Both the position numbers and the translations under genes were made by a program. This document shows positions 1-5,678 of a stretch of 5,678 nt of DNA, one piece after another. The stretch is taken from NCBI GenBank assembly GCA_007133445.1, contig SLMR01000149.1, forward strand, positions 1 through 5,678, written 5' to 3'. Within the stretch, counting starts at the first letter, position 1, and each line of letters starts with the position of its first letter. The DNA comes from Aquisalimonas sp. Lineage in GTDB: Bacteria > Pseudomonadota > Gammaproteobacteria > Nitrococcales > Aquisalimonadaceae. Under the pieces are notes generated by a model. It was not told where the DNA came from and ran no database searches. It was given only the letters and a program-made list of their open reading frames with translations.

Positions 1-768
1 CTGATCGCCGAGACCGGCGGCCAGAACGCCATGATCGCGGACTCCACGGCTCTGCCGGAGCAGCTGGTCCGCGATGTGCTGATCTCGTCATTCCAGAGCG
101 CCGGCCAGCGCTGTTCGGCACTCCGGGTGCTCTACGTGCAGGAAGACGTGGCCGACCACGTGCTGACCATGCTCCGGGGCGCCATGCAGGAGCTCACCGT
201 GGGCGACCCGGCATGGCTGGCCACCGACGTGGGCCCGGTGATCGACGCCGAGGCGCGGGAGAGTCTGATGGCGCACGTGGAGGCCATGCGCCGCAAGAAC
301 AAGGTCATCGGTGAAACGCCCCTGCCGGAGGACACCCGCGAAGGCACCTTCGTCGCACCCGTCGCCTTCGAGGTCAGCGGCATCGAGGCTCTTGAGGACG
401 AGCACTTCGGGCCGATCCTGCACGTGGCCCGCTTCCAGGCCAAGGATCTGGATCGCGTCATCGACGCGATCAACGCCTCGGGGTACGGGCTCACCATGGG
501 TGTCCACAGCCGCATCGACGCCGTGGCGGAACGTATCGCCCAGCGCGCGCGGGTGGGCAACCTGTACGTGAACCGTAACCAGATCGGTGCGGTGGTGGGG
601 GTGCAGCCCTTTGGCGGCGAAGGGCTCTCGGGCACTGGCCCGAAGGCCGGCGGCCCGCGTTACCTGCACCGGTTCGCCACCGAGCGGACGATCACCGTGG
701 ACACCACCGCCGCCGGAGGCAATGCCTCGCTGTTCGCCATGGGGGATGAAGAGGACCTGCCGCGGTAG
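1..768 (+). CDS. putA: PutA, C-terminal part (delta-1-pyrroline-5-carboxylate dehydrogenase domain), 5'-truncated
   Basis: This is the end of the bifunctional proline dehydrogenase / P5C dehydrogenase. The visible part is the aldehyde dehydrogenase half, which oxidises glutamate semialdehyde to glutamate with NAD+. The frame is open from base 1 and ends at TAG 766-768 (255 codons seen). Visible motifs, numbered from the window edge, are the ETGGQN segment with the conserved active-site region Glu at codon 4, the nucleophile Cys38 in SAGQRCSAL, the EDEHFGPIL motif near residue 132, and PFGGEGLSGTGPKAGG near 203. The ending TERTITVDTTAAGGNASL is typical of PutA rather than of stand-alone P5C dehydrogenases. 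The protein stops soon after it, so there is no long extra C-terminal domain. The first in-frame ATG (31) lies inside the catalytic domain and is not the real start. No functional link to the downstream operon is evident; a strong hairpin separates them. Confidence 0.93.
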   Translation: MIAETGGQNAMIADSTALPEQLVRDVLISSFQSAGQRCSALRVLYVQEDVADHVLTMLRGAMQELTVGDPAWLATDVGPVIDAEARESLMAHVEAMRRKNKVIGETPLPEDTREGTFVAPVAFEVSGIEALEDEHFGPILHVARFQAKDLDRVIDAINASGYGLTMGVHSRIDAVAERIAQRARVGNLYVNRNQIGAVVGVQPFGGEGLSGTGPKAGGPRYLHRFATERTITVDTTAAGGNASLFAMGDEEDLPR

Positions 769-776
769 AAGGAACC

Positions 777-810
777 GCCGGGGGTGTCGCAGGGCTGCGA
801 CACCCCCGGC
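777..810 (+). terminator. Strong GC hairpin just after putA, probable 3' end
   Basis: A perfect 15-bp inverted repeat (777-791 with 796-810) encloses the 4-nt loop GGGC and starts 8 nt after the putA stop. It lacks a T-run on its 3' side (AGAAACC follows), so it is not a canonical intrinsic terminator. It could act as a terminator in a GC-rich genome, as a Rho-assisted 3' end, or as an mRNA-stabilising stem. The position makes a transcript-end role most likely. Confidence 0.6.
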
Positions 811-1023
811 AGAAACCACCAGGCCCCGCGCCCTGCGGCCCGAGGCGTCATCCTGGCCGTGATTGTCGCGCCCGTGAAGCATGTCCGGCCACTCCGCGGC
901 CGACCCAGCCGCTGAAAACTCCCTCAGCAAACGCCCCTTTCTGCCCGCACCAACGGGCCGCATGCAGGCATTCCGCCACCGAATGACGCCCTGGGACACC
1001 CAGGGCGGCGTCGATTCCCTTCC
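811..1023. other. Non-coding upstream region of the repeat-protein operon
   Basis: No convincing gene is present between the putA hairpin and the operon promoter. The one long antisense frame here runs into putA as its shadow. The stretch holds a 9-bp stem with a 3-nt loop (987-995 with 999-1007) and two weak inverted repeats with 7-nt spacers: CATTC/GAATG at 969-973 and 981-985, and CGGCC/GGCCG at 886-890 and 898-902. Enhancer-binding proteins usually bind about 80-200 bp upstream of a sigma-54 start, so this is where operators for the activator should lie. None can be assigned with confidence. Confidence 0.45.
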
Positions 1024-1040
1024 CTGGCCCATCTCTTGCT
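1024..1040 (+). promoter_or_regulatory. Sigma-54 (-24/-12) promoter for the four-gene operon
   Basis: The sequence CTGGCCCATCTCTTGCT matches the sigma-54 consensus YTGGCACGRNNNTTGCW at 11 of the 14 specified positions. It includes the invariant GG (1026-1027) and GC (1038-1039) at exactly the right spacing. The predicted start is near 1051, giving a leader of about 74 nt before the ATG at 1125. The presence of a GAFTGA-containing sigma-54 activator in the same locus strengthens the call. A chance match in GC-rich DNA remains possible. Confidence 0.7.
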
Positions 1041-1110
1041 CTGGCTTATAGAGCCGAGCCGAGCGGTCCGCCCGTGCCGGCAATTACCCCTTTGAGTAAC
1101 GACGTCCTTT

Positions 1111-1116
1111 GAGGAG
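1111..1116 (+). promoter_or_regulatory. Ribosome binding site of the repeat-protein gene
   Basis: GAGGAG sits 8 nt before the ATG at 1125 and fixes that start. An 8-bp sequence CCTTTGAG occurs twice (1089-1096 and 1106-1113), the second copy overlapping this site. Confidence 0.8.
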
Positions 1117-1124
1117 TAAGAACG

Positions 1125-2045
1125 ATGAAAACCACGAACGCACTGATTGCGGCCTCCATTGCTGCGGTATTCGGTCTGGGAGTCAGCACCGCTGCACTCG
1201 CGGAGAACAACGCCAACGCCGACAATGCATCGGCGAGCGCGGCCGGCGAGTCCACTGCGAACTCCAACAGCAGCAAGACCTGGACGGATTCCGCCAACGA
1301 CAGCTCCGATAACTCTGACAACTCGGATCAGAGCGTTGCGGATTCGTATAACGATAGCTCGGACAACTCGGACAACTCCGACAACAGCATCTCGGACTCC
1401 GGGAACGACAGTTCCGATAACAGCACCAACATCGCGGATTCCGGCAATGACAGCTCGGACAACAGCTCCAACGCCGCGGATTCCTTCAACGACAATTCGG
1501 ACAACTCCGACAACTCCGACAACAGCATCGCCGATTCCTACAACGACAACTCCGACAACAGCGTTGCGGACTCCGGCAATGACAATTCGGACAACAGCAT
1601 CTCGGACTCGGGGAACGACAGCTCCGACAACAGCACCAACGTCGCGGATTCCTACAACGACAGCTCCGACAATAGCTCGAGCGTCGCGGATTCCTATAAC
1701 GACAATTCTGATAACTCGGATAACTCGGACAACTCCGACAACTCCGATAACAGCATTGCCGATTCCTACAACGACAACTCCGACAACAGCGTTGCGGACT
1801 CCTATAACGACAACTCCACCACCACTATCAACATGAGCATGGCGGTGGCCTCCAGCGAGCTGTCCGGCAACGTTTCCGGCAACACGCTGCGGCTGAAGGG
1901 CGAGAGCTACTTCTCCGCGGACAACGTGATTGGCGGCGGTGCCTTCGGCGAGGTGGCAGGCATCAACCAGGTGTCGCAGAACAGTGGCGCCAGCAGCCTG
2001 ACTCAGCAGAACGTGACGGTGCAGTCGAACCTGAGCTTCGAATAG
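1125..2045 (+). CDS. Secreted acidic Asp/Asn/Ser-repeat protein, candidate fibre or adhesin subunit
   Basis: This 306-aa protein is of unrecognised specific family. Residues 1-26 form a clear Sec signal peptide ending ALA before Glu27. A short Asn/Ala/Ser linker leads to twelve low-complexity repeats (Trp53-Thr234) built on a 12-residue unit V/I-A-D-S-Y/G/F-N-D-S/N-S-D-N-S, several extended by extra DNS triplets. The C-terminal 70 residues are not repetitive and end in a beta-rich stretch, GINQVSQNSGASSLTQQNV and following, related to the end of the next gene's product. The mature chain has no Cys and only three Lys/Arg (Lys51, Arg256, Lys258), so it is extremely acidic. As first gene after the sigma-54 promoter it is probably the major product of the operon. 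By analogy with Fap it may be the fibre subunit, though it lacks a Cys-x-Cys motif. Alternatives are an acidic matrix or cation-binding surface protein. Confidence 0.85.
   Translation: MKTTNALIAASIAAVFGLGVSTAALAENNANADNASASAAGESTANSNSSKTWTDSANDSSDNSDNSDQSVADSYNDSSDNSDNSDNSISDSGNDSSDNSTNIADSGNDSSDNSSNAADSFNDNSDNSDNSDNSIADSYNDNSDNSVADSGNDNSDNSISDSGNDSSDNSTNVADSYNDSSDNSSSVADSYNDNSDNSDNSDNSDNSDNSIADSYNDNSDNSVADSYNDNSTTTINMSMAVASSELSGNVSGNTLRLKGESYFSADNVIGGGAFGEVAGINQVSQNSGASSLTQQNVTVQSNLSFE
1281..1826 (+). repeat. In-frame tandem repeat array encoding 12 Asp/Asn/Ser units
   Basis: Twelve units of 18, 18, 14, 14, 18, 12, 12, 14, 14, 24, 12 and 12 residues run without gaps from Trp53 to Thr234. 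Each starts with a hydrophobic residue and follows with A/S/T-D-S, an aromatic or small residue, and N-D. Units 3-7 (1389-1598) and 8-12 (1599-1826) form a five-unit block present twice. A 45-nt stretch at 1530-1574 is identical to 1758-1802. The 9-nt element for DNS recurs in tandem around 1495-1525 and 1705-1755. All variation is in multiples of three bases, so the frame is never broken. Confidence 0.92.
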
Positions 2046-2053
2046 ACGTCACC

Positions 2054-2085
2054 GGCGGAGCTCTCAGAACCGTGGGAGCTCCGCC
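2054..2085 (+). other. Intercistronic RNA hairpin between the repeat gene and the next gene
   Basis: A perfect 10-bp inverted repeat (2054-2063 with 2076-2085) extends by one G-U and two Watson-Crick pairs to a 13-bp stem with a 6-nt loop (2067-2072). It lies 8 nt after the stop of the repeat gene and has no T-run. A partial terminator or a 3' stabiliser that keeps the first cistron more abundant than the rest would fit. Confidence 0.6.
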
Positions 2086-2103
2086 CCTACTGAGGGTACC
2101 GCC

Positions 2104-2442
2104 ATGAAGTACGCGACCATGATCTTCGCGCTGGCTGCCGCCACCGCAGTGATGACCACCGGGTTCGCCGCCGCCGACGACGCGCTGTTTGCCGCACCGC
2201 TGGAGGCCGGGGAACTGGAGAACCACCGCGCCAAGGCCAGTCAGTACCACGCGCAGCTGGGTCAGCTCTCCGAACAGGCCGTGCTCACCGACAACGAGAT
2301 CGGCAGCGCCCACACCGGGAACAACGCCCTGTCCCACGGCGCCTTCAGCAGCGCCAACGGCGTGACGTCGGTCATCCAGAACACCGGGAATCACGTCATC
2401 ATCCAGGATGCCGTGGTCGTGAACGTGACGGTGTCGCAATGA
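2104..2442 (+). CDS. Small secreted protein, candidate minor subunit sharing a C-terminal motif with the repeat protein
   Basis: This is a 112-aa protein of no recognised named family. The start is supported by TGAGGG 7 nt upstream. Residues 1-24 are a Sec signal peptide ending AAA before Asp25. Residues 33-44 resemble a double-glycine leader in spacing (Leu33, Glu37-Leu38), but Ala-Lys replaces Gly-Gly. The last 39 residues (74-112), starting NALSHGAF, align without gaps to residues 267-305 of the upstream repeat protein at 13 identities, including GAF, Q-N and alternating Val positions typical of a beta strand. The stop overlaps the ATG of the peptidase gene by 4 nt (ATGA), so the two are probably translationally coupled. 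Roles that fit are a nucleator, a minor subunit or an assembly partner. Confidence 0.82.
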   Translation: MKYATMIFALAAATAVMTTGFAAADDALFAAPLEAGELENHRAKASQYHAQLGQLSEQAVLTDNEIGSAHTGNNALSHGAFSSANGVTSVIQNTGNHVIIQDAVVVNVTVSQ

Positions 2443-3119
2443 TGCGATGGCTCGCCCTGCCGCTTCTGCTGGCACTGTCATCAGGCGCCTGTGCCGGCAC
2501 GGTGTGGCTGTCCGGCGCCGGCACGACGCTGGCGGTGGACGTCGTCAACATGCGGGATGCACGCTTCCAGGGCGTGGTCCGGCAGCAATACGATTTCAGC
2601 TGTGGTGCCGCATCAGTGGCAACCCTGCTCACTTATCACTACGACGACCCCGTCGGCGAGCGCGAGGTCATGGACGGCATGCTGGCAAGCGCCGATGCCG
2701 AGCGCGTCGTCAACGAAGGGTTCTCCATGCTCGAGATGAAGCATTTTCTCGCCACCCGGGGCCTGGACGCGGACGGGTTTCGCGCCGGCCTGGACGCGCT
2801 GGCGGGCACCGGTATTCCCGCCATTGCGCTGATCGACACCGACGGTTATCGCCACTTCGTGGTCATCCAGGGCGTGTCGTCGGATGAGGTCCTGGTGGGC
2901 GACCCGGCCCTGGGAGTGCGGGTCTACAGCCGGACGGAGTTCAAGGCCATCTGGAACGGCCTGCTGTTCCTGGTGCGCGATCATGTCGACCAGGCCAAGG
3001 CCACGTTCAATCGCGCCGAACAATGGGCGGTGCGCGAGCGCGTGCCCTACGGGCTGGCCCTGCAACAGCCGACGCTGGATGGCTTCGCGCTGTCCCTGCC
3101 GCGCTCGGGGGACTTCTGA
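2439..3119 (+). CDS. Periplasmic C39-family cysteine peptidase (FapD-like)
   Basis: This 226-aa protein begins with a Sec signal peptide (residues 1-19, cut at ACA before Gly20). The C39 catalytic set is visible: oxyanion Gln49 six residues before nucleophile Cys55 in QYDFSCGAASVATLL, catalytic His139 in GYRHFVVIQGV, and Asp155 in VGDPALG. C39 domains normally form the N-terminus of bacteriocin ABC exporters and cleave after Gly-Gly. This one has no membrane or ABC domain and should act in the periplasm, as FapD does in Pseudomonas fap loci. The downstream gene encodes a plausible Gly-Gly substrate. The start overlaps the previous stop; a second in-frame ATG at 2442 is equally possible and would change only one residue. 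The region after about residue 185 is a short unassigned tail. Confidence 0.9.
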   Translation: MMRWLALPLLLALSSGACAGTVWLSGAGTTLAVDVVNMRDARFQGVVRQQYDFSCGAASVATLLTYHYDDPVGEREVMDGMLASADAERVVNEGFSMLEMKHFLATRGLDADGFRAGLDALAGTGIPAIALIDTDGYRHFVVIQGVSSDEVLVGDPALGVRVYSRTEFKAIWNGLLFLVRDHVDQAKATFNRAEQWAVRERVPYGLALQQPTLDGFALSLPRSGDF

Positions 3120-3120
3120 C

Positions 3121-3582
3121 ATGCGCCGCACCATTCACATCCTCTGCCTGGCGGCCCTGCTCGGAGCTGCCGATGCGGGCGCGGGTGAGCCGTTTTTCCG
3201 CGATCTCGCACCTATCGCCGACGACACGCTGGCGGAAATGCGCGGCGGCTTCGTGTTGCCGGGCGGGGGCGTGCTTGCCCTGGGAGTGGACAGCGGCGTG
3301 CGCATCAACGGCGAACTGGCCGCACACATGCAGTGGGAGAACGGTCAGGTCCGGATCACCCGGTCCGGCGCCATGCTGGACGGCCTGAGTGTGAGCGCCC
3401 TGGACGAGCATGCCATGGCCGCCGGCCGGTCACTGGGGTGGATCGTTCAGAACCAGCTCGACGAGATCCAGATCCACAGCTTCACTGAGTTCCATGTGGA
3501 TCTGCAGGGCATGCGGGGCATCAGCACCATCCATCGCGACCGCATGCTGGAAGCGCAGGCGGTCACCCAACTGGCCCGCTGA
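3121..3582 (+). CDS. Secreted protein with a double-glycine leader, probable C39 peptidase substrate
   Basis: This is a 153-aa protein of no recognised family. A Sec signal peptide (about residues 1-20) is followed by a short stretch, FFRDLAP, and then a motif at residues 32-43 (IADDTLAEMRGG). That motif fits the GG-leader pattern, with hydrophobics at -12, -7 and -4 and Gly-Gly at -2/-1. Cleavage after Gly43 would release a 110-aa product starting FVLPGGG. The C-terminal part (108-128) begins IVQNQLDEIQIH and recalls the Q-N plus beta-strand ending of the two other secreted proteins of the operon. The gene starts 1 nt after the peptidase stop, with GGGGGA 9 nt before the ATG, so production is tied to the peptidase. 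In position it corresponds to FapE, but it has no Cys in the mature region and no clear similarity I can show. Confidence 0.85.
   Translation: MRRTIHILCLAALLGAADAGAGEPFFRDLAPIADDTLAEMRGGFVLPGGGVLALGVDSGVRINGELAAHMQWENGQVRITRSGAMLDGLSVSALDEHAMAAGRSLGWIVQNQLDEIQIHSFTEFHVDLQGMRGISTIHRDRMLEAQAVTQLAR
3214..3249 (+). other. Double-glycine (C39) processing site in the encoded protein
   Basis: These codons encode the 12 residues ending in Gly42-Gly43. Ile at -12, Leu at -7, Met at -4 and GG at -2/-1 match the recognition pattern of C39 peptidases. The site sits about 20 residues downstream of a Sec signal rather than at the N-terminus. Confidence 0.65.
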
Positions 3583-3594
3583 ACTGGCCCGCTG
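3569..3594. repeat. 13-bp perfect tandem duplication at the convergent gene ends
   Basis: AACTGGCCCGCTG occurs twice head to tail (3569-3581 and 3582-3594). The first copy spans the last codons and most of the stop of the secreted-protein gene; the second fills the gap to the barrel gene. An 8-bp palindrome CTGATCAG (3592-3599) covers the barrel gene's stop. No terminator hairpin is seen between these convergent genes. Confidence 0.85.
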
Positions 3595-3595
3595 A

Positions 3596-4636
3596 TCAGA
3601 AACGCATCGGCAGGCGCAGGGAAATCTGCACGTCCGGTGCCGCCTCGGTGACACCGAACCCGAGCCCCAGGTTGGCCGTGGTACGCGGCCCCAGGCGCTG
3701 ACTGATGCCCAGGGAGGCCGTGCCCACCTGCAGGCGCCGAAACGTCGGCTGCAGATCATGTTCAAGGTCCTTGATCCGGGTCCGATCCACCACCGAATGG
3801 TCATACCCCAGGCTGAAGGAGGTGCGGTCGTTCACGGCGAGCCCCATGCCCAGCCCCACGCTCACGGCGTCGCCCGGATTCACGCGGCCGTAGTCGCCGC
3901 CCACGTCCCGCTCGATGTTCCAGAGGTACCCCACATGGCCGTAGAGGACTGCAGGCTGGGTGGGATAGATCACGCTCAGGCTCGGTTGCACGCTCCAGAA
4001 GCCCGAACCGGTGGGCTGCTCGACAAAGATTTCACCGATACGGTCACCGTCGTCGGTGAGCACGGACTGGGTTTCCACATCGAACGGCCCCGTGCCGGTG
4101 TCGGATTTCACCCGCAGGGACCCTACGAACAGCGGCCCCTCGGCGCTGGTATTGAGCTGATAGCGCAGGGCAGCCTCCACGTCACCCAGGCCCTTGCCGC
4201 GGGAGCGCTCCAGGCCCGGAAAACTGCTCTCCGCCAGCACTTCACGCTCCCGGATGGCCTCCTCGCGGTAGACCCACGGCACCCGCGTCTCAACTTCAAG
4301 CCGCTGGGTCAGGCCATAGCGCAGCGTGAGCGCGGAGGTGAAGGTATCGCGCTGCACCTGGCTGACGTTGATCAGGCCGATGGCAATCGCGGGAATGACG
4401 GTGAAGCCCTGGATATCCACCTGCGTCGCCGAGGAATGGGTGTACTGGATCGAGGGTTCCACCACCAGAGTGCCCCGCGAGGACAGCACCGAGCGCTGGC
4501 CGGTGACCACCGTGACATCCTCGGCCGCCGCACCCGAGCCTCCGGAGGCGGAATCAGTCTGTGCGAGCGCACCTGCGGGGATCGTCAGGAAACCGGCAAC
4601 GACGACGGCGATACCACGATTCAGCGTTTTTCTCAT
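3596..4636 (-). CDS. Outer-membrane beta-barrel protein, candidate export channel (FapF-like position)
   Basis: This 346-aa protein has a Sec signal peptide (residues 1-25, ending ALA before Gln26), then a short Ser/Gly/Ala-rich linker and about 300 residues of alternating hydrophobic and polar strands with frequent Gly and aromatic residues. The terminal Phe346 in SLRLPMRF is the outer-membrane insertion signal. Segments such as GLGDVEAALRYQL (149-161), LFVGSLRVKSDTGTGPF (169-185) and the final strands recall the transporter-type barrels related to the phenol-degradation MetA and FapF groups; I cannot settle the exact family. Unlike Pseudomonas FapF there is no long helical or coiled-coil region before the barrel. 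The start is supported by GGAGAG (4645-4650, minus strand), 8 nt from the ATG. It lies 42 nt after the activator gene on the same strand and converges with the secreted-protein operon, so it probably serves that operon. Confidence 0.85.
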   Translation of the reverse strand: MRKTLNRGIAVVVAGFLTIPAGALAQTDSASGGSGAAAEDVTVVTGQRSVLSSRGTLVVEPSIQYTHSSATQVDIQGFTVIPAIAIGLINVSQVQRDTFTSALTLRYGLTQRLEVETRVPWVYREEAIREREVLAESSFPGLERSRGKGLGDVEAALRYQLNTSAEGPLFVGSLRVKSDTGTGPFDVETQSVLTDDGDRIGEIFVEQPTGSGFWSVQPSLSVIYPTQPAVLYGHVGYLWNIERDVGGDYGRVNPGDAVSVGLGMGLAVNDRTSFSLGYDHSVVDRTRIKDLEHDLQPTFRRLQVGTASLGISQRLGPRTTANLGLGFGVTEAAPDVQISLRLPMRF

Positions 4637-4678
4637 TAGCGCGACTCTCCAGACCGCATCTGGGCAGGATCGGCCCCG

Positions 4679-5678
4679 TCATGTCGCCGCGTGCTCGCCC
4701 CGGCCGCGATCGCGCAGACTCAGCCCGTGACGCTGAACCATCCGGTACAGCGTGGCGCGCGAGACGCCCAGAGCCCGCGCCGCCAGAGTGTAGTTATGCG
4801 CGTATCGTGCCAGCGCGTTGCGGATGGCAGCGCGCTCGGCCTCCCGGCGCGCCGCGTCCAGCGACTCGACGCTGCGATGCACCTGCCGTCGCCGCTCCAG
4901 CCCCAGATCCCGCGGCGTGACGTAGGCCCGGTCACACAGCACGGCGGCACTGCGCACGCGGTTCATCAGTTCACGGACATTGCCGGGCCAGTCATGGGCC
5001 TGCATGGCCTCATGCGCCTGGCGGGTGAATCCGAGCACGCGGCCGCCCTCCTCGCCGACGAAGGCGTGCAGGAAGTAGTCGGCCAGCAGCACGATATCCT
5101 CGCCCCGGCCTCGCAACGGCGGCATGTCGACGCGCAGCACGTTGAGGCGGTAGAAGAGGTCGTCCCTGAATGTCCGTGCCTCCAGACATTCTTCGAGACC
5201 CACATATGTCGCAGCAATGACACGCACCCGCGGGGAGAGCGGCTCGGTCGACCCCAGCCGCTCGATAGTGCCTTCCTGCAGGAACCGCAGCAGGTTCACC
5301 TGCAGCTCCAGCGGCAGGTCACCGATCTCGTCCAGGAACAGCGTGCCACCGTCCGCGGCCTCGATGCGCCCGGTGCGGCGCGCCGTGGCGCCGGTAAAGG
5401 CGCCACGCTCATGGCCGAAGAGCTCCGAGTGGATCAGCGAGGCTGGCAGCGCACCGCAGTTGACGGCGATGAACGGGCCCTGCGCGCAGGGCGAGCGGTC
5501 GTGGATGGCCCGCGCCACCAACTCCTTGCCGGTCCCGCTTTCACCCTGAATCAGGACGGGGGCGCGGCTTCGGGCGAAACGCGGAATCAACCGGAAGATG
5601 CGTCGCATGCAGGGACTCTGCCCCACCATGCGGGCGAAACCATCCACGGGCGTCGGCGGCGTGCGCAGGCTGCACATC
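4679..5678 (-). CDS. Sigma-54 enhancer-binding transcriptional activator, 5' end outside the window
   Basis: The visible 333 codons hold the AAA+ domain and DNA-binding domain of an NtrC-class activator. Numbered from the Met at 5677, these are Walker A GESGTGKE (45-52), the sigma-54-contacting loop GAFTGA (92-97), Walker B GGTLFLDEIGDL (110-121), the arginine-finger region FRDDLFYRLNVL (170-181), WPGNVREL (230-237), and a Fis-type helix-turn-helix LAARALGVSRATLYRMVQRHG (about 298-318). The AAA+ sequence resembles the VpsR-like group linked to biofilm regulation, but the intact GAFTGA favours true sigma-54 activation. The sensor-I segment reads AATYVGLEE, with Tyr where Asn or His is usual. 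The frame is open through the window edge, and the Met at 5677 is probably internal, because a sensory domain normally precedes this region. It is followed 42 nt later by the barrel gene. The likely target is the 1024-1040 promoter. Confidence 0.93.
   Translation of the reverse strand, partial: MCSLRTPPTPVDGFARMVGQSPCMRRIFRLIPRFARSRAPVLIQGESGTGKELVARAIHDRSPCAQGPFIAVNCGALPASLIHSELFGHERGAFTGATARRTGRIEAADGGTLFLDEIGDLPLELQVNLLRFLQEGTIERLGSTEPLSPRVRVIAATYVGLEECLEARTFRDDLFYRLNVLRVDMPPLRGRGEDIVLLADYFLHAFVGEEGGRVLGFTRQAHEAMQAHDWPGNVRELMNRVRSAAVLCDRAYVTPRDLGLERRRQVHRSVESLDAARREAERAAIRNALARYAHNYTLAARALGVSRATLYRMVQRHGLSLRDRGRGEHAAT

Follow-up and report, generated by a model that had tools for sequence, protein, structure and literature searches.

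A recurring Fap-like gene module in Aquisalimonas and the candidate substrate of its C39 peptidase

Gene content of the module

We examined a 5,678-nucleotide stretch of DNA from Aquisalimonas sp. (contig SLMR01000149.1, positions 1 to 5,678; hereafter the window), which carries six genes that together resemble the Fap system of Pseudomonas. As a first-pass annotation of the letters had proposed, the genes form two convergent units, and the open reading frame (ORF) listing of the window has all six frames open where that annotation placed them. The plus-strand unit consists of rep, sp1, a C39 peptidase gene, and sp2, and the minus-strand unit consists of the genes for an outer-membrane barrel and a sigma-54 activator, with 13 bases separating the final stop codons of the two units. 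This layout recurs in most of the 80 related loci described below.

The first gene, rep (1125–2045, plus strand), is an ORF for a repeat protein of 306 amino acids (aa) that has no Pfam match and in which a signal peptide is recognized by inspection (signal peptides were called by eye and with a simple hydrophobicity rule). Residues 51–235 (1275–1829, plus strand) form a region rich in Asp, Asn, and Ser (D/N/S), evident from its composition and from tandem repeats with main periods of 36, 42, and 72 bases. This region contains 56 S, 45 D, and 41 N, or 142 of 185 residues, and one K/R. Near the C-terminus, residues 265–302 (1917–2030, plus strand) make up a conserved, Fap-repeat-like motif that is common to rep and sp1. 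A hidden Markov model (HMM) trained on the rep and sp1 proteins of window-type loci (the family motif HMM) finds one copy in the window rep (E 2.4e-14, with the window copy possibly among the seeds of the model) and one in the window sp1 (residues 72–109). The sp1 gene (2104–2442, plus strand; 112 aa) is an ORF for a small secreted protein with a signal peptide that is FapB-like in profile comparisons. It overlaps the C39 gene (2439–3119, plus strand; 226 aa) in an ATGA, and a single base separates the latter from sp2 (3121–3582, plus strand; 153 aa), which encodes a second small secreted protein with a signal peptide that is FapE-like by profile.

The C39 peptidase, which also has a signal peptide and is FapD-like, matches Pfam Peptidase_C39 at 7.5e-19 (68.3 bits versus a cut-off of 22), and its residues Q49, C55, H139, and D155 are invariant across the 28 C39 sequences of alignment A1, the window's included. 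The nearest solved relative of this family by sequence is a double-glycine peptidase domain (6mpz, 4.5e-12). The match to NCBIfam C39_FapD is strong (2.9e-46) but lies under the cut-off (157.6 versus 330 bits). Since these equivalog cut-offs are strict, with that of FapE passed in 0 of 369 genomes although 15 have FapE matches, the low score is weak evidence against a Fap assignment.

On the opposite strand, the barrel (3596–4636; 346 aa) is FapF-like, with a match to NCBIfam FapF (2.2e-45; 155.2 bits versus a cut-off of 700) that covers FapF positions 102–420 only, and FapF is also its closest solved structure by sequence (5o67, 2.5e-34). A PTGSGF motif is seen in alignment A2. The N-terminal coiled coil of FapF was not found in the window barrel, where the FapF match begins at position 102, and by eye in alignment A2, about 27 residues precede the barrel domain in the mature protein. 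In the same alignment, some barrels of the family carry a coiled-coil-like stretch at the N-terminus and others, including that of the window, do not. The activator (4679–5677, minus strand; 332 aa in the window) contains GAFTGA, a Sigma54_activat domain (PF00158, 2.2e-67), an AAA lid, and a Fis-type helix-turn-helix (HTH_8, 3.8e-08). The frame stays open up to the edge of the window, and relatives encoded next to a barrel measure about 370–550 aa, so the N-terminal domain of the activator would lie outside the window.

Recurrence of the module and its relation to Fap

A C39 protein search gave 3843 relatives at E ≤ 0.001 among 6382 candidates, and a contig scan with an alignment of the window C39 and 27 of its matches confirmed at least 589 places. 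The best 80 loci were retained, such that counts over 81 loci refer to the window plus the best 80 of at least 589, the 80 being picked by similarity. Their sources include Ectothiorhodospira, Thioalkalivibrio, Marinobacter, Halomonas, relatives of Geobacter, alphaproteobacteria, and Nitrospira. The sp1 and sp2 HMMs cross-match one another and rep, and loose counts were replaced by filters on position and signal peptide, which remove 15, 3, and 11 of 81 to leave 66 rep, 78 sp1, and 70 sp2 proteins.

Among the 52 loci with more than 8 kb on each side of the C39 gene (the full-flank set), a barrel is present in 51, sp1 in 52, and sp2 in 52 (by the loose HMM), while a repeat gene in the place of rep is found in 49 (with a crude finder) and an activator somewhere in the locus in 42. 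Over all 81 loci, the barrel nearest C39 is convergent in 56, co-directional in 10, and upstream in 8, for a total of 74. Six of the seven barrel-less loci have less than 2.4 kb upstream of C39; the seventh, L060, is fully flanked yet lacks a barrel. In the full-flank convergent loci, the activator lies within 400 bases of the barrel in 37 of 41. In two loci, the first set is followed downstream by another C39, barrel, and activator fragment, as though two modules were arranged in tandem (L026, at about +7.0 to +10.6 kb from C39; L072, at about +5.2 to +10.6 kb). The C39 frame of L049 spans 762 codons without a stop, versus the usual 230 or so, representing either a fusion or merely an open upstream frame.

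The first-pass annotation had named co-occurrence of C39 and barrel genes in other genomes as a check, and the reverse search bears the association out; for the barrel, it also goes against the refuting condition set there, namely homologs mostly lacking the four-gene operon. It covered 369 genomes from the class of G001, which is the genome of locus L003 and hence not independent of the 80 loci, with strong matches defined as E ≤ 2.5e-116 for the barrel and E ≤ 6.9e-83 for C39; the search scores few candidates per genome, and misses are possible. A strong barrel match occurs in 17 genomes, 15 of which have a strong C39 match within 2.5 kb, and every genome with a strong C39 match (15/15) also has the barrel. 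For the remaining two, the contig of G375 stops about 270 bases past the 3′ end of the barrel, and that of G319 stops just before its 5′ end, with the 3′ side present and no C39 there. The idea that orphan barrels of the window type are common was rejected on these counts. At any strength, barrel matches occur in 45 genomes, with no nearby C39 in eight: G319, G375, G289 (9.8e-62, in the classical range), and five with weak matches of 1.2e-9 to 8.8e-7 (G031, G037, G293, G321, and G341). Genome G055 has seven C39 matches (2.9e-25 to 9.7e-20) and no barrel match.

For comparison, we took as classical fap loci those with an NCBIfam FapE match (16 places in 15 of the 369 genomes), of which 11 were fetched. 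A maximum-likelihood tree of C39 resolves three groups: the window type (81 sequences, support of 100/99), FapD (11 sequences, 99/92), and a third C39-plus-barrel type (6 sequences, 97/85), with the caveat that selecting the 80 relatives by similarity favors a separate clade. The third branch consists of L182–L187, in which C39 occurs with a FapF-like barrel. One genome, G021, contains both a window-type and a classical system, about 90 kb apart.

Comparison of family profiles places sp2 with FapE (94.9%) and sp1 with FapB (92.0%), the latter also matching FapE (86.2%), and the window families match one another (rep C-terminus with sp1, 94.2%; sp1 with sp2, 96.8%); the five reversed controls that were run each gave at most 0.3%. 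Weaker values were obtained for the rep C-terminus with FapB (46%) and sp1 with FapC (26%), and sp2 with FapB was negative (0.5%). By itself, the window sp2 reaches only 0.032 against NCBIfam FapE (13.4 of 250 bits). On the strength of the family profiles, sp1 and sp2 are distant homologs of FapB and FapE, respectively. The co-occurrence counts and profile matches show a set of genes that keep together and include homologs of FapB, FapD, FapE, and FapF, and by the same counts, the six genes are one recurring module of a Fap-like kind, as first proposed.

The subunits themselves differ from those of classical Fap. An HMM of the FapB/C repeat made here (trained on 10 FapB and 10 FapC; one of the 11 loci was omitted because it was masked) finds three copies in 10/10 FapB and 9/10 FapC, its own training sequences. 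Of the rep proteins, 65 of 66 have no copy by this model, 4 of 78 sp1 have one, and the window rep, sp1, and sp2 have none. The family motif HMM finds at least one copy in 38/66 rep, 54/78 sp1, 7/10 FapB, 0/10 FapC, and 2/70 sp2. The sole rep exception for the FapB/C-repeat HMM is that of Acidithiobacillus locus L028, with three copies by that model and four by the family motif HMM, and by these motif counts, L028 is a bridge between the two subunit types. The middle part of rep varies over the 66 loci, being D/N/S-rich in 28, G-rich in 19, of other composition in 18, and too short in 1. The rep protein is likely the major subunit, with a FapC-like role. In L168, a classical fap locus, a FapC-like gene (1765–3141) precedes a FapB-like gene (3865–4548), as rep precedes sp1 in the window. 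Judged by the C39 tree and the repeat models, the module represents a lineage sister to Fap, with a subunit type of its own, rather than Fap itself.

In the sampled class, the window lineage is about as frequent as FapE-bearing systems (17 versus 15 of 369 genomes). A 2025 survey, as its methods are excerpted, retained only clusters with FapB/C-repeat homology (PMC12392863). Because of that requirement, and because the HMM made here misses 65 of 66 rep proteins, the survey probably overlooked this branch.

A double-glycine-type leader in FapE relatives

Behind its Sec signal, sp2 has a double-glycine-type leader (residues 32–43 followed by F44, IADDTLAEMRGG/F; 3214–3252, plus strand), and cleavage by C39 is predicted after residue 43 (base 3249). 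LxxxRGG-like patterns are characteristic of the double-glycine leaders that C39 peptidases cut. The leader can be aligned in 80 of the 81 loci, with R at −3 in 76, G at −2 in 73 (A in 6), G at −1 in 78, L/M at −7 in 79, E at −8 in 54, and L/V/I at −12 in 65. This alignment model was seeded with motif-matching sequences, and a pattern count on trimmed proteins is the better figure: [LM]xxxRGG occurs in 55 of 70 trimmed sp2 proteins versus 0.7% of shuffles, and a relaxed form in 64 of 70 versus 6.4%. In alignment A3 (30 of the 70 sp2), nine columns are invariant or nearly so, and four of these are the leader residues L37, R41, G42, and G43. When mature sp2 (residues 48–153) is used as the query, two relatives are found (60–63% identical), both with LAxMRGGF, which are too few to serve as a non-circular test of the leader.

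A related pattern is observed in the other branches. Classical FapE has [LM]xxxRG[RK][FY] behind its signal peptide in 16/16 loci (a plain count, with two loci nearly alike). In the third branch, small exported proteins encoded beside C39 have leaders of the double-glycine type in three of six loci by plain count (L184, L186, and L187), with variants ending in GQ or AQ in L182 and L183 and none in L185. In front of C39, L187 encodes three such proteins, whose leaders read [LM]xxxQMDxxxAG. Nine C39 positions differ between the window clade and FapD, none of which clearly explains G versus R/K at the cut site. Within the window, sp1 has a degenerate leader, ELENHRAK (residues 37–44; 2212–2235, plus strand), that matches the relaxed motif. 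That motif occurs in 61 of 78 sp1 proteins (window included) versus 12% of shuffles, with a variable final residue. The motif is found in none of the 66 rep proteins.

In the literature, of which we cite excerpted portions throughout, the target of FapD was called unclear in 2017 (PMC5557850) and its substrate yet to be determined in 2018 (PMC6173800). The former source states that Fap proteins have no canonical C39 sites, noting GG and GA motifs in FapE and FapF, and reports that FapC secretion is abolished in a FapD C38A variant and that FapE is N-terminally processed (PMC5557850). A 2025 review names the N-terminus of FapE, along with FapF, as the presumed target of FapD processing (PMC12822426). 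FapE as the FapD substrate is therefore an existing suspicion, while the conserved leader motif is new here; no description of such a motif in FapE relatives was found in searches of an open-license library. Because a double-glycine-type leader sits behind their Sec signal, FapE-like proteins are likely C39 substrates, and for sp2 itself, we hold this assignment with good confidence. The motif amounts to a residue-level prediction for which protein FapD cuts, and where. The main value of the module is that it makes the question of the FapD substrate directly testable.

Regulation, interpretation, and comparison with known systems

A sigma-54 (−24/−12) promoter-like site, TGGCCCATCTCTTGCT (1025–1040, plus strand), lies 100 nucleotides before rep and matches 10 of 12 consensus positions; two such sites occur in the window over both strands. 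Upstream of rep, 42 of 65 loci (the window among them) have a site with at least 10/12 matches, versus 2.0% of random 350-base windows from the same loci; this count omits 16 of the 81 loci (15 without a recognized rep and one that is too short). Such sites occur in 38 of 51 loci with an activator versus 4 of 14 without. A VpsR domain is present in 46 of 56 activators examined (50 window-type and 6 classical). The first-pass annotation had described a parts list like that of fap with a built-in activator as a difference. The FapD- and FapF-like parts are indeed homologous, and sp1 and sp2 are remotely related to FapB and FapE, but the activator fails as a distinction: all 11 classical fap loci fetched also have a sigma-54 activator gene, either beside the operon or beside a separate barrel gene, and excerpts of PMC13101488 describe BrfA, an enhancer-binding protein that senses cyclic diguanosine monophosphate (c-di-GMP) and drives fapA in Pseudomonas fluorescens. 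Use of both c-di-GMP and RpoN is described for BerB (PMC5552954).

Between rep and sp1, folding of the 58-base gap (−29.1 kcal/mol, z score of −2.8) predicts an RNA hairpin of 13 bp without a U-tract (2054–2085, plus strand). The corresponding gap has a z score below −2 in 55 of 62 loci versus 13 of 132 windows placed at random and 20 of 84 gaps between other co-directional genes, and has a stem of at least 8 pairs in 60 of 62 loci and a U-rich tail in 6 of 62 (4 of 66 loci, with gaps shorter than 30 bases, are omitted). In classical fap, the fapC–fapD gap has a z score below −2 in 7 of 8 gaps tested (8 of the 11 loci). The predicted hairpin likely marks rep as a high-copy subunit.

Several other features of the window were noted. 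Upstream of the module, positions 1–768 encode the C-terminal part of PutA (proline/P5C dehydrogenase, where P5C is pyrroline-5-carboxylate). Because even weak matches to putA (E < 1e-2, at most 63 bits) occur at just 4 of 80 related loci, we judge putA to be a non-member of the module. Directly after putA, a 17-bp inverted repeat (775–812), terminator-like on the minus strand, divides it from the module. A 13-base direct repeat, AACTGGCCCGCTG, is present in 2.1 copies at 3569–3595, extending across the sp2 stop up to the base preceding the barrel stop. An Rfam scan of the window gave no match at the gathering threshold. The nearest named relatives of the window proteins are those of Aquisalimonas and Aquisalimonadaceae.

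Taken together, these observations are best explained by a lineage sister to Fap whose products build a surface structure made of protein, a reading that we regard as probable overall; a Fap-like role in export and assembly is very likely, and the amyloid nature of the product is held with less confidence than either this role or sp2 as the substrate. In the mechanism that we propose, a VpsR-type activator, probably sensing c-di-GMP, would turn on the operon from the sigma-54 promoter, and rep would be made in excess, with the hairpin protecting its message. Rep, sp1, C39, and sp2 would all exit via Sec, after which the periplasmic C39 would remove the double-glycine-type leader of sp2, and perhaps that of sp1, thereby licensing export through the barrel. 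Outside the cell, sp1 may nucleate, and rep may polymerize via its single C-terminal Fap-type motif, leaving its acidic D/N/S arms exposed. A broader generalization is offered tentatively, with somewhat less than even confidence: periplasmic C39 peptidases paired with FapF-type barrels, FapD included, would process Sec-exported subunits bearing a second, bacteriocin-type leader directly behind the signal peptide, such that Sec cleavage and then leader cleavage act as successive export licenses; classical FapE would be cut after RG[RK]; and the fiber of the window branch would have a one-motif core with an acidic D/N/S brush.

A number of observations weigh against parts of this reading. On the regulatory side, an activator is absent from 10 of the 52 full-flank loci, and no good sigma-54 site was seen in 23 of the 65 loci. 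The VpsR domain was not seen in 10 of 56 relatives, the region in question is absent from the window activator, and VpsR itself is described as binding c-di-GMP yet working without RpoN (PMC5552954). For the subunits, the rep C-terminus profile is weak against FapC (7.5%) and does not match sp2 (0.4%), the FapB/C repeat is not detected in the window rep, and the family motif HMM finds no copy in 28/66 rep and 24/78 sp1 proteins. As to the substrate, the window sp1 may be uncut because its leader ends in RAK rather than GG, FapF has also been proposed as a target of FapD in excerpts of PMC5557850 and PMC5135000, and the N-terminal linker of the window barrel has a GG, though without the leader pattern.

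That the module is simply a sequence-diverged Fap system, with no separate class, is unlikely in our judgment. Homologs of FapB, FapD, FapE, and FapF are all present, Acidithiobacillus loci L014 and L028 fall within the window-type C39 clade, and a published survey counts Acidithiobacillus among the Fap genera, with an operon that deviates and 4–8 FapC repeats (PMC3792158). Against this stand the separation of the C39 clade from FapD (with 100/99 support, on a similarity-chosen set), the absence of the FapB/C repeat in 65/66 rep proteins by the HMM made here, the different strand layout, the replacement of RG[RK] by RGG, and the presence of both systems about 90 kb apart in G021. About as improbable is the possibility that rep is shed into the medium as a polyanion, either soluble or part of a matrix, and that no ordered fiber forms. 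The composition of residues 51–235, with 142 of 185 residues being D, N, or S and one basic residue, and the variable middle of rep across the 66 loci would fit such a product, whereas its conserved Fap-repeat-like C-terminal motif and its co-inheritance with a FapF-like pore argue for assembly.

Two further alternatives are less likely still. C39 peptidases of bacteriocin exporters cleave double-glycine leaders like that of sp2, which would fit a system for releasing a bacteriocin or signal peptide rather than a fiber; however, no ATP-binding cassette (ABC) transporter is encoded in the window, signal peptides are present on the peptidase and its substrates, the barrel resembles FapF, and sp1 and rep have a common Fap-type motif, making this reading very improbable. 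The barrel also has a weak match to Phenol_MetA_deg (7.4e-05, 23.4 bits versus a cut-off of 22), as might be expected if it imported hydrophobic compounds like COG4313/MetA_deg-type channels and the operon were merely adjacent, a notion to which we give scarcely any credence when 15 of 17 strong barrels lie within 2.5 kb of a C39 gene.

Parts of the window branch were seen before in earlier surveys, as far as their excerpts show. FapD and FapF belong to larger families, with 70 of 1594 FapD-HMM matches assigned to Fap (PMC3792158), and homologs of fapD and fapF are colocalized in five further phyla (PMC6173800); these excerpts give no account of subunit genes, a leader, or a regulator for such clusters. 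The Acidithiobacillus loci L014 and L028 share the C39 clade of the window along with the small proteins, convergent barrel, and activator, although the repeat protein of L028 has 3–4 Fap-type repeats and no D/N/S array. They may be the Fap-like loci published for that genus (PMC3792158). FapF and FapD of F. caldus have been found in vesicles (PMC10853474). The Fil system of Acinetobacter, in which FilA is a pilus subunit in strain Tol 5 (PMC11784438), also combines a C39 peptidase with a barrel, and the window matches FilB (7.3e-35) and FilC (9.9e-12), but at 120.7 of 475 and 44.9 of 630 bits, respectively, far under the cut-offs. ABC bacteriocin exporters, such as PCAT and ComA, share the C39 domain by sequence and a double-glycine-type leader in the likely substrate, whereas the window peptidase is free-standing with a signal peptide. 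With VpsR-type enhancer-binding proteins, relatives of the window activator share the combination of VpsR domain, AAA+ domain, and Fis helix-turn-helix.

The closest known system is the Pseudomonas Fap system (fapABCDEF). No match to FapA was found among the seven window proteins, and no gene lies between the promoter-like site and rep in the window; FapA is missing from 6 of 16 Fap genera in the excerpted survey (PMC3792158). In contrast to classical Fap, D/N/S repeats and a single C-terminal motif take the place of three Fap repeats in the window rep, the barrel is convergent and without a coiled coil, C39 falls in its own clade, and the sp2 leader ends in RGG rather than the RG[RK] of classical FapE. 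Both systems have a C39 peptidase with a signal peptide, a FapF-type barrel, FapB- and FapE-like small proteins, a hairpin after the major subunit gene, and a sigma-54 activator nearby.

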